A DNA stretch of 38,890 bases, from the NCBI GenBank assembly GCA_015272165.1, contig JACYMF010000013.1, positions 1 through 38,890 of the forward strand, read 5' to 3'. Positions 17,614 through 22,787 of the stretch are shown piece by piece. This stretch comes from Cyanobacterium sp. T60_A2020_053. GTDB taxonomy: Bacteria > Cyanobacteriota > Cyanobacteriia > Cyanobacteriales > Cyanobacteriaceae. The notes below the pieces were generated by a model, which had not been told where the DNA came from, did no database searches, and saw only the letters and a program-made list of their open reading frames with translations. Each line of letters begins with the position of its first letter. Position 1 is the first letter of the stretch. Both the position numbers and the translations under genes were made by a program.

Positions 17614-17767
17614 CTTAATTTATGTTAAAAATGTTTAATATTTCTTAATTTATTGTAACAGTTAAAAGAAGAGAAGCAGAGGGGAAGAAAATTTAGAATT
17701 TAGAAAGTAAAGTTAATTCAATATTTTCTAGTAATATTTTATTTATAATGAATTGTTTAGCATTCTT

Positions 17768-17803
17768 CATAACTCATAATTCATAACTCATAATTCATAA
17801 TTC
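17768..17803. repeat. CATAATTCATAACT tandem repeat at the queG end
   Basis: Repeated CATAACT/CATAATT units. They run into queG and encode its last residues (MNYEL and the stop). The same units occur at about 20346-20389, between the divergent pentapeptide-repeat gene and thf1. Confidence 0.7.
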
Positions 17804-18726
17804 ATTTGTGCTTGGGCATTACGGCGCCACATGGCTGGTTTGATACGGCGAAGGGCGCTACCTGTAAAACGTTTATCCCATTCTTCATCACTCAGATGGG
17901 CTAAATCTGCTAAGGAAGGATTAAGATTTTCGGTATAAGGGTTAAAATCTTCTACGTCTGTAGGTTGAGCAAATCTTTCATTCCAAGGGCAGACATCTTG
18001 GCATATATCACAACCAGCCACCCAACCGTTAAGATGAGGGGTGATATGATCGGGCAATTTTTCCGCTCGATTTTCGATGGTATGATAGGCTAAACAACGG
18101 TTAGCATCCACGACGGAGGGCGCTGTAATGGCATTGGTAGGACAGGCTGTAATACAACGGCTACAAGTGCCACAGTGATTAGTATGGGGTTTATCTGGTT
18201 GTAATTCTAAATTGGTGATAATTTCTCCCAAAAACACCCAACTACCGTAGTCACGGGTAATGACGTTACCGTTTTTGGCAATCCAACCGATACCAGCTTG
18301 TTGCGCCCAAAATTTATCTTGCACGGGCGCGGTATCTGCATAGTAGCGAGTTTTAATGGTGGGATGTTGATTTTCTAACCATTGACTTAATTTTTTGAGT
18401 TTTTTGTGCATGATGCGATGGTAGTCTCTACCCCAACCATAACGGGATATTTTGCCAATATTGGGGTTATTTTCTCTTTGGTGGGGGGTATAGTAATTTA
18501 AGGCAACAGCAATAATCGAGCGCCCTTCACCCCAACACTGACGTATATCTTGACGTTTAGCATTATCCATCCATGCCATATCAGCTTGATAACCTTTTTG
18601 TAACCAGTCTTGCAAATGATTCACCGCTTTTTGGCGTTCATTTTCCGTAGCTGAAATAGTGGTAATACCTACTTTATGAAAACCGGTGGAGTGCGCTTGT
18701 TCTTTAATTTCCTTTTCGTTAATCAC
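17788..18726 (-). CDS. queG: Epoxyqueuosine reductase
   Basis: Last step of queuosine synthesis: cobalamin-dependent reduction of epoxyqueuosine in the wobble position of GUN-anticodon tRNAs. The 312 residues show the DUF1730-type N-terminal domain with YGWGRDYH (about 96-103) and the catalytic Asp in YYADTAPV (D131). The two [4Fe-4S] sites are in CGTCSRCITACPTNAI (C185, C188, C191, C195) and CDICQDVCPWN (C239, C242, C246). All ligands are present. It is slightly shorter than forms carrying a C-terminal HEAT repeat, a normal variant. No other que gene is in the window. Confidence 0.95.
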   Translation of the reverse strand: MINEKEIKEQAHSTGFHKVGITTISATENERQKAVNHLQDWLQKGYQADMAWMDNAKRQDIRQCWGEGRSIIAVALNYYTPHQRENNPNIGKISRYGWGRDYHRIMHKKLKKLSQWLENQHPTIKTRYYADTAPVQDKFWAQQAGIGWIAKNGNVITRDYGSWVFLGEIITNLELQPDKPHTNHCGTCSRCITACPTNAITAPSVVDANRCLAYHTIENRAEKLPDHITPHLNGWVAGCDICQDVCPWNERFAQPTDVEDFNPYTENLNPSLADLAHLSDEEWDKRFTGSALRRIKPAMWRRNAQAQMNYEL

Positions 18727-19070
18727 TTTGACAATCCTTAATTAGGTGTTGATCAAAAAGTATTTGGGTGAGGGGAGGTGTCAGGCTTCGGGTGTCGGGT
18801 GAAATAAAGGTGTCAGGTATCAGGTAGCAGGTATTAGGTGAGATAAAGGTGTTAGGTATTAGGTGAAATAGTTGACAAAAAATAGCCTTTTTTCTCTAAA
18901 AATACTGTATTTTTTCCATCCCCATCAAAAATTATTGATACAAATGAGTAATTTATGAAAAATAACTACTTGGCTTAATTCATTAATTTATAAGTATTTC
19001 ACCTGCAACCTGCAACCTGAAACCTGCAACCTGCAACCTGCAACCTGCAACCTGAAACCTGCCTAATTTA
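18727..19070. repeat. Compound repeat region: heptads in opposite orientation around a dispersed repeat
   Basis: This gene-free gap between queG and the pentapeptide-repeat gene is almost all repeat. At 18767-18868 are CAGGTNN-type heptads, at 18873-19000 the inner part of the dispersed repeat (copy B), and at 19001-19063 nine ACCTGCA-type heptads on the complementary sense. The two heptad arms are therefore inverted relative to each other. The opening block GAGGGGAGGTGTCAGGCTTC at 18770 also occurs at 28036. Confidence 0.75.
18873..19000 (+). repeat. Dispersed intergenic repeat, copy B
   Basis: Matches the reverse complement of about 28061-28185 closely: shared blocks are AAAAATACTGTATTT, GATACAAATGAGTAATTTAT and TTGGCTTAA. 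It lacks the TCTGCTGAATAA end present in copies A and C, so it is truncated at that side. Confidence 0.7.
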
Positions 19071-20279: not shown

Positions 20280-20456
20280 AAGCTATGGCAATGCAGGGTT
20301 TATTTTAATTTTATCAGAAAAGGCAAAGGGCAAGGGGCAAGATAATAATTCATAACTCATAACTCATAACTCATAATTCATAACTCTGAAGACTTGCCTT
20401 CTATGTGAGATAATTAAGTATTGTAAACAAAATAAAAAATAAATAAAAGATTATTT

Positions 20457-21531: not shown

Positions 21532-22452
21532 TTAAGATTCAGGGGCATTAATTCTTTCAGATTCACCAATATTTTTAATAATATTTTCGCCCAATTGTTC
21601 TAAAACTACTGTGCCTTGTAAAGGACCTAAATTTCTTTCCACAAAACCACCATTATTCCTAAGAGTAACCATTTGATTTGAAGGACGAGATAATTGGATT
21701 CTTTTTACCAATACATTTCCTTGCTCATTAGAAATTACATCCCCTTCTCGAATGGAACGAACGGGGTTATTATCAGGAGTAGAAATTAAAGCGACATTTT
21801 CTCCTCCCACATCAATAATTCCTGATATTAAGATACTCCGCGCATAAAGTGGTTCGGGGGGCGCTAGAGGTTCAAACACCTCTCCATTAGGGATCGCAGG
21901 TACATTACCACTATTACCAGCGCCCGTAGCACCCTTAGCGCCCGTAGCGCCTGTAGCGCCCGTCGCTCCCCTACCACCATTACCAGCAGCGCCTGTAGCC
22001 CCTGTAGCGCCCGTCATCCCATTACCAGCGCCGGTCATTCCATTACCGGCGCCCGTAGCGCCTGTAGCGCCCGTCATACCATTACCACCATTACCAGCAG
22101 TGCCTACTTCACCATTAAAATTACCATTCGTAGTAACACCATTGTCGGCTGAAGCGCCATTGGCAAAAGTAGGTTCTACATATTGAATAACCACGCTGGG
22201 CGTGGACAAAGAAAAGGGATCACTTTTACGCTCATTGACTTGGGCGAGGCGCGTTTGAGGGTTTGTAGAAGGAATTAAACCACTAGCCACCCCATCAGAT
22301 ATATCCAGAGAAGGGGCTTCGTTAGGAATTTCGGCGGAAGGTGTGGGATTTTCGGGGGGAAATTCATTGACAACATCATCGCTGCCGTCATCGATGGTAC
22401 ATCCAGAGATCAATAAAAACGCTGATAATAGCAGAGGAGATAATTTTTTCAT
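21532..22452 (-). CDS. Lipoprotein with collagen-like Gly-Ala-Thr tract and C-terminal beta domain
   Basis: A 306-residue exported protein. The N-terminal signal ends in a lipobox (LLISGC, Cys at about 18). A Pro/Asp-rich linker and an SDPF motif follow (about 76-80). Residues about 120-180 are a low-complexity tract of GATGATGA and GNGMTGA units. The C-terminal 100 residues form a conserved-looking beta domain (ILISGIIDVGGENVALIST, RSIREGDVIS), which recalls the small periplasmic PilP/GspC-type modules; that likeness is weak. The tract is encoded by repeated GGCGCT-containing codons, so it seems to have arisen by expansion of the local heptamer. Followed by the 81-residue gene. No function is assigned. 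Confidence 0.8.
   Translation of the reverse strand: MKKLSPLLLSAFLLISGCTIDDGSDDVVNEFPPENPTPSAEIPNEAPSLDISDGVASGLIPSTNPQTRLAQVNERKSDPFSLSTPSVVIQYVEPTFANGASADNGVTTNGNFNGEVGTAGNGGNGMTGATGATGAGNGMTGAGNGMTGATGATGAAGNGGRGATGATGATGAKGATGAGNSGNVPAIPNGEVFEPLAPPEPLYARSILISGIIDVGGENVALISTPDNNPVRSIREGDVISNEQGNVLVKRIQLSRPSNQMVTLRNNGGFVERNLGPLQGTVVLEQLGENIIKNIGESERINAPES
21910..22100. repeat. In-gene GGGCGCT-type repeat encoding the collagen-like tract
   Basis: On the + strand, AGCGCCCGTAGCGCCTGT-like 9-base units are repeated, with five exact AGCGCCC heptamers and several one-base variants in under 200 bases. Triplet structure is kept, giving Gly-Ala-Thr on the minus strand. Confidence 0.8.
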
Positions 22453-22787
22453 GGCTTTAAGTCATTCTTCGCTCACCATAACCAATATATCTCATATTCT
22501 ATTTTTTATACTCTTAATATTTTTCCGTAATTTTACTGAATTTATCATGGTGGAGGGCGCTGGGGTGCTGGTTTTTTGCAAATTTAGGTACAAAATTGAT
22601 TTGTTTTGCAGAGAAAACAAGGGAGAAAAGGAAGATTTTTTCTATTATTTGATAATGTTATAGCAGTCCTAAACGATTCGTGAACAACCATCCTTTAATT
22701 CTTCTTTTAATAAAAAGGTTCAAGGGAAATCTTATTTTACAAATCAAATAGTATTGCTATATTAGAAAAGGAAAGAGGCAAAAAACA
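22453..22787. other. Gap between divergent genes
   Basis: AT-rich, no gene seen. It holds an isolated extended heptamer (GGTGGAGGGCGCTGGGGTG at about 22548-22566), an IS-end-like string near 22661 (TATAGCAGTCCTAAACGATT) and the promoter of the downstream gene. An open frame across the left part overlaps the lipoprotein gene and is not supported. Confidence 0.5.
22736..22763 (+). promoter_or_regulatory. Sigma70-type promoter for the small pentapeptide-repeat gene
   Basis: TTTACA at 22736-22741 and TATATT at 22758-22763, 16 bases apart, 24 bases before the ATG at 22788. A purine-rich AAGGAAAGAGG leader lies between. Confidence 0.45.

Follow-up and report, generated by a model that had tools for sequence, protein, structure and literature searches.

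An asymmetric GGGCGCT motif in place of HIP1 in a Cyanobacterium genome, and a lipoprotein linker written in its codons

The purpose of the palindrome HIP1 (GCGATCGC) is, to our knowledge, still open, and in Neisseriaceae and Pasteurellaceae uptake signals accumulate through recombination of preferred DNA. In the part of Elhai (2015, PMC4390886) on which we draw, the distribution of HIP1 nearly matches that of CGATCG methyltransferases, apart from a few exceptions, the function of HIP1 is argued from methyltransferases, and some genomes low in HIP1 have another palindromic word instead. Uptake sequences are described, in the part of PMC1939737 used here, as non-palindromic, with a conserved core, less conserved extensions and no orientation bias, and as commoner in non-coding DNA than expected. 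Here we describe a window of 38,890 nucleotides, a stretch of Cyanobacterium sp. T60_A2020_053 DNA, in which GGCGCT occurs 94 times, whereas 100 dinucleotide shuffles contain 6.83 on average. A preliminary description had singled out a repetitive tract in a lipoprotein gene of this window; the unusual feature, however, is the asymmetric word that replaces HIP1 throughout the genome, not the tract. Like HIP1 and the alternative HIPs in the same part of Elhai (2015, PMC4390886), this motif is one short GC-rich word that is hugely over-represented, denser in coding DNA and of similar density, and it appears where HIP1 and the C5 methyltransferase that tracks HIP1 have been lost. Unlike the HIPs, of which the alternative ones described there are palindromic, it is asymmetric, is not evenly spaced and has a one-sided extended consensus. 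With the DUS and USS of Neisseriaceae and Pasteurellaceae it shares a non-palindromic form, a strict core, graded flanks, more than 1000 copies and restriction to one species, but it is coding-rich rather than intergenic-rich and lies in a cyanobacterium.

First, the motif is abundant in this genome and rare around it. The 9-mer GGGCGCTGG occurs 1736 times in the genome of the window, compared with 5, 31, 60 and 93 times in four congeners and 0-11 times in ten other members of the family, and across 25 order-level genomes its counts run from 1 to 118, with a reversed-pattern control reaching up to 56. The longer word GGTGRNGGGCGCT is present in 973 copies here and in at most nine in each of 385 other cyanobacteria searched, which makes it abundant in one of 386. 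In a 741-kb sample of the genome, GGGCGCT was observed 1186 times where a second-order Markov model expects 57, a density of about 1.6 copies per kb that exceeds the roughly one per kb by which HIP over-representation is judged; GGGCGCT nevertheless differs from its own reverse complement and is not the palindromic word that a HIP would be. The related palindromes follow it at a distance: 372 kb contain 647 copies of GGCGCT, 48 of AGCGCT (41 expected) and 64 of GGCGCC (13 expected), so that GGCGCC is itself enriched, but far less than GGCGCT. Around the core the consensus extends to AnGGTGRAGGGCGCTGG and is clearest in 75 intergenic copies, with A at -8, GGTGRA 5' of the core and GG 3' of it; the flanks carry 7.0 bits in these copies and 4.1 bits in 1104 coding copies. 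For HIP1 in the congener G003, with which all congener comparisons other than word counts were made, the flanks are symmetric and carry 3.7 bits (547 copies) or 4.5 bits (20 intergenic copies). The symmetric extension of HIP1 in G003 reads roughly AAGG before and CCTT after GCGATCGC. The congener G004 has, with 93 copies, the most GGGCGCTGG among the congeners, far below the genome of the window.

Second, the motif has been written into coding DNA in every phase. With coding DNA taken as mechanically called open reading frames of at least 80 amino acids, its density is 1.91 per kb in coding sequence (1109 in 581 kb) against 0.47 per kb between genes (76 in 160 kb), G+C in this genome being 32% in intergenic DNA against 38%; HIP1 in G003 is likewise denser in coding DNA (0.78 versus 0.17 per kb). 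The heptamer is found in all six coding phases, unevenly, with 38 to 389 copies each. Words of the motif are the first synonymous choice in this genome for Gly-Ala (GGCGCT, 438/986), Ala-Pro (GCGCCC, 240/520), Gly-Arg (GGGCGC, 172/555) and Ser-Ala (AGCGCC, 210/889), for none of which they come first in the sample of G003, and the second choice for Ala-Leu (GCGCTG, 169/1489) and Gln-Arg (CAGCGC, 65/418). Among 230 heptamer sites with gapless orthologous codons in G003, drawn from 122 reciprocal best pairs of the two genome samples, only 5 show the heptamer in G003 as well and a further 27 differ from it by a single change, and we therefore conclude that the motif was gained largely by in-place substitutions. 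Amino-acid identity at motif codons falls to 0.66 from 0.745 overall; a protein-changing cost special to the motif does not follow, since HIP1 codons of G003 drop equally (0.65). Simple conversion of HIP1 sites was a minor route at most, as 12 of 90 aligned HIP1 sites of G003 have a heptamer no more than 8 nt from the corresponding position, where 3.4 are expected. A role of inverted pairs was also considered and set aside, with 14 convergent pairs at 60 bp or less among 1140 gaps.

Third, the gain of this motif coincides with the loss of HIP1. The genome of the window has 59 copies of GCGATCGC, whereas its congeners have 983 (in a 63% complete genome) and, in three that are near-complete, 2064, 2053 and 1989. 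Five C5 methyltransferases are common to the congeners G002 and G003, and four of them have no close relative in the genome of the window. The one of these four that was traced across genomes, G003:C1:2405321-2406586, has orthologues at 72-82% identity in G002, G004, G007, G008, G010, G011 and G012 and at 45-59% identity in G015-G020, the orthology call at 45-51% being a judgement; its best match in the genome of the window reaches 34%, and that in G021 35%, while G006 and G009 gave no match to it. Among 16 genomes with HIP1 counts, all three HIP1-poor ones (59, 41 and 41 copies) are without an orthologue of this enzyme, and 12 of the 13 HIP1-rich ones possess it, in one case as a fragment, the exception being G005, whose genome is 67% complete. 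This co-occurrence with HIP1 suggests that the lost enzyme was the CGATCG methyltransferase; if its specificity is read in this way, the genome has an alternative word where both HIP1 and that methyltransferase are gone. The two other HIP1-poor genomes, G006 and G009 of genus g3 of the family, have 41 copies each and are without the HIP1-tracking methyltransferase.

We propose that a genome-wide process rewrote this genome and would also account for the motif density of the tract described below. HIP1 was lost along with the C5 methyltransferase that tracks it, and the asymmetric motif with its GGGCGCT core accumulated by in-place point substitutions in all six coding phases; the likeliest driver, in our view, is a HIP-like sequence-directed bias, exerted by a DNA-modification or repair machine that recognises an asymmetric site. 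We favour such a bias because the motif is coding-rich like HIP1 and came with the loss of HIP1. Among the observations against it, the position-specific flanks, with their 7.0 bits between genes, exceed what a simple methyltransferase site needs. The heptamer also shows no even spacing (coefficient of variation 1.16 versus 1.03 for random placement), whereas the intervals between HIP1 sites in G003 are more regular than chance (0.83 versus 0.97), which counts against the likeness to HIPs. No GGGCGCT-specific methyltransferase was identified among the many methyltransferase genes of the genome. Its four full-length C5 enzymes have close relatives in HIP1-bearing congeners (72%, 78%, 83% and 95%), and the N6/N4 matches (6 here, 3 in G001, 0 in G002, 2 in G003 and 8 in the HIP1-rich G015) and D12 matches (4 here, one of them below the cut-off, 2 in G001, 1 in G002 and 1 in G003) belong to enzymes whose specificity is not readable from sequence. 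Candidates among them are the N6/N4 genes at C8, C12, C42, C45, C88 and C113 and the extra D12 genes at C27 and C15.

The main rival explanation takes the motif for a signal in DNA uptake: transformation through type IV pili would prefer DNA that carries it, and recombination of that DNA would let it accumulate. Its non-palindromic form, short strict core and graded flanks, the restriction of the 9-mer with its 1736 copies to one species, and the lack of orientation bias relative to GC skew among intergenic copies (34 versus 42) are what such a signal would show. However, the excess in non-coding DNA described for uptake sequences is reversed here, and HIP1 in the congener is coding-rich too; nor does uptake predict the simultaneous loss of HIP1 and its companion methyltransferase, and on balance we consider this explanation unlikely. 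The same orientation counts bear on a Chi-like recombination signal, which the GC-rich, asymmetric word might suggest, as might the fact that 656 of 1186 sites are on whichever strand is richer in G within their stretch (P=0.0003). This bias is weak (55:45, measured on draft contigs only) and is lost in intergenic copies, so that it probably follows gene orientation; with so weak a bias we regard the Chi-like reading as very improbable.

Returning to the modification or repair bias, we give about an even chance to the combined account in which the linker grew by duplication of units and HIP1 was replaced by an asymmetric motif, likeliest through that HIP-like bias; both the duplication of units and the driver are what we infer from the patterns reported here. 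We put forward more tentatively, as a possibility, that the HIP1 palindrome was swapped in one species for an asymmetric motif of about 16 nt and of the uptake-signal type, with a strict GGGCGCT core and thousands of rewritten coding positions. If true, cyanobacteria would have in it their first DNA-uptake dialect, or HIPs their first non-palindromic member, within the literature searched, in the titles and abstracts of which we found no report of an asymmetric HIP. The loss of HIP1 within a genus that otherwise keeps it, together with the gain of an asymmetric substitute, can tell apart hypotheses between which palindromes do not decide, as a one-sided extended consensus is not predicted by a symmetric methyltransferase site but is predicted by uptake recognition or by an asymmetric modification or repair enzyme.

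Table 1. Positions in the window of the lipoprotein gene, its repeats and one extended copy of the motif
Feature	Position	Strand	Basis
Gene of the lipoprotein (306 aa), with signal peptide/lipobox, a hypervariable linker of low complexity and a conserved domain at the C-terminus	21532..22452	-	Open reading frame and homologues
Gly-Ala-Thr/Gly-Asn-Gly-Met tract, 9 GGCGCT including 5 GGGCGCT	21919..22071	-	Repeat and word counts
9-bp tandem array, mostly ACNGGCGCT units; period 9, 5.0 copies, 83% matches	21919..21963	-	Tandem Repeats Finder
42-bp repeat inside the tract, two copies	21946..22029	-	Tandem Repeats Finder
21-bp repeat inside the tract, 2.4 copies	22006..22056	-	Tandem Repeats Finder
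Conserved domain at the C-terminus (about residues 205-306), matching PilP weakly and under cut-off	21535..21840	-	Pfam and homologues
Extended-motif example ggtggagggcgctgg, outside the lipoprotein gene	22549..22563	+	Sequence and consensus

The lipoprotein whose gene carries the tract (Table 1) begins with MKKLSPLLLSAFLLISGC, lipobox-like as judged by eye, and its spacer peptide GTAGNGGNGMTGATGATGAGNGMTGAGNGMTGATGATGAAGNGGRGATGATGATGAKGATGAGNS is made of 9-, 21- and 42-bp repeats. The preliminary description had called the tract collagen-like, the densest heptamer cluster of the window and intact in triplet phase. The last two points are borne out: no other 191-bp stretch is as dense in GGCGCT or in GGGCGCT, either in the window or in the 741-kb sample, where the runner-up has 4 GGCGCT to its 9, although only 5 of these 9 hexamers extend to the full heptamer, and the phase is unbroken. 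Collagen-like was loose wording. As in bacterial collagen-like Gly-X-Y proteins, the protein is extracytoplasmic and has short Gly-Ala-Thr runs, but these are interrupted, proline-free and no longer than about seven triplets (5-6, or 7 in another register by eye), which is too short, and there is no Pfam collagen match; on both grounds a collagen is rejected. With PilP-type pilus assembly lipoproteins it shares a lipobox, a variable linker, a small C-terminal domain and a weak match: a Pfam scan up to E=1 returned PilP alone (E=0.074). Membership of PilP (PF04351) is nevertheless rejected, as the match scores 13.4 bits against a curated cut-off of 25.6. In an alignment of the window protein with 10 homologues from 20 loci fetched, which also served for a profile search against solved structures, PilP matched at E<=0.1 in 2 of 11 homologues scanned (best 0.024), and the structure search gave three weak matches, namely adiponectin (4dou_A, E=0.0047, without any single stretch passing alone), 1s04_A (0.042) and 2z0t_A (0.61).

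The tract looks signature-rich mainly because the genome usually spells Gly-Ala as GGCGCT. In sampled open reading frames of at least 120 amino acids, the lipoprotein gene excluded, GGCGCT codes 438 of 986 Gly-Ala pairs, compared with 9 of 13 in the spacer (P=0.064), and is used in 69 of 101 Thr-Gly-Ala triplets, compared with 9 of 11 in the spacer (P=0.27); since such usage is close to what is normal for the genome, no special seeding has to be invoked for the density. Plain codon usage would yield about one GGCGCT in the tract, with none of 20000 draws reaching 9, and shuffling the tract's own synonymous codons yields 4.8 (P=0.0011), the P values for the tract being approximate and optimistic throughout because tandem copies share ancestry and the units are non-independent. 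What stands out is the reverse: the full heptamer is completed in 5 of the 9 tract hexamers, whereas it is completed in 68 of the 69 copies found at Thr-Gly-Ala elsewhere (Fisher P=0.0004) and in 1181 of 1362 when every GGCGCT is counted (P=0.023), meaning that the leading G is absent from 4 of 9 in the tract and from 1 of 69 elsewhere in the sample. Judged by their flanks, the five heptamers of the tract score at the 29th-66th percentile of 556 other copies. Where a motif dictates synonymous codons, as in this genome, that alone may make low-complexity protein tracts look motif-driven, a caution for readings of this kind.

Against this background, the first reading of the tract, by which a microsatellite was seeded by the heptamer itself and turned into a protein spacer, stands in part. 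The motif is indeed genome-wide, and the tandem units of 9 bp look copied at the DNA level because four of nine lack the leading G and because a second locus (L036, at G000:C8:2702-2730) shares a 29-nt identical string with the tract. This locus, the only other place with the pattern GGCGCTACNGGCGCT, is an array of the same 9-mer units running antisense within the gene of an unrelated short protein whose start is signal-like; read from the opposite coding strand, it encodes a different peptide, PVAPVAPVA, or (Pro-Val-Ala)n. However, the density follows the codon habit of the genome, and GGCGCTACNGGCGCT occurs at these two loci only in the whole genome, so that the motif does not seed arrays as a rule; neither are paired full heptamers 9 bp apart found elsewhere in the 741-kb sample. 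We regard seeding by the heptamer as a credible but doubtful origin. The simplest reading, which fits these observations, is duplication of the units at the DNA level, followed by drift: the tract is the fast-evolving linker of a cell-envelope lipoprotein, would have grown in this species through tandem duplication of short 9-, 21- and 42-bp units and is probably tolerated since little constrains the sequence of the linker.

The homologues are in line with a linker of this kind. A homologue of the lipoprotein was found at E<=0.001 in 36 of 40 genomes searched, the genome of the window counted, and in those read the N- and C-terminal parts are alignable whereas the linker diverges strongly, often into another low-complexity repeat such as KTTTG units in L018 or KPPAKATAKA units in L017; the linker therefore tolerates wide change. 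Among the congeners, G002 and G003 have the gene whole in one piece with a Gly/Pro-rich linker without Thr-Gly-Ala, in G004 it is broken across contigs, and G001 gave no lipoprotein match at E<=0.001. The preliminary description had held that orthologues keeping a Gly-Ala-Thr tract without the heptamer would point to selection on the protein, and such a linker does exist: L014 (genome G035, another family of the same order) has GATGVTGATGATGAAGAAGAAG in the equivalent linker, coded GGT GCT ACT with no GGCGCT, so that a tract of this type can arise without the motif. Because the linkers of G002 and G003 are without Thr-Gly-Ala, however, that of L014 is probably a convergence. Selection of a Gly-Ala-Thr linker on which the motif was written afterwards, unit by unit, would explain L014 and the mostly synonymous differences among the Thr-Gly-Ala units, but not the lack of Thr-Gly-Ala in both congeners with the whole gene, and it predicts ACG before nearly every GGCGCT, as in 68 of 69 copies elsewhere, where the tract has 5 of 9; we judge it distinctly unlikely. 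Taken by itself, the tract shows a linker evolving in the ordinary way, coloured by the codon habit of a genome that is unusual.

Two further kinds of repeat were observed. The window has tandem arrays with a 7-bp period that are unrelated to the heptamer, at 1892-1935, 17766-17805, 19001-19062 and 20345-20386 (for example ACCTGCA x 8.9), and the genome sample contains about 90 copies of a repeat with GTTTCCATTCAAGTATTTTC that is CRISPR-like by appearance.
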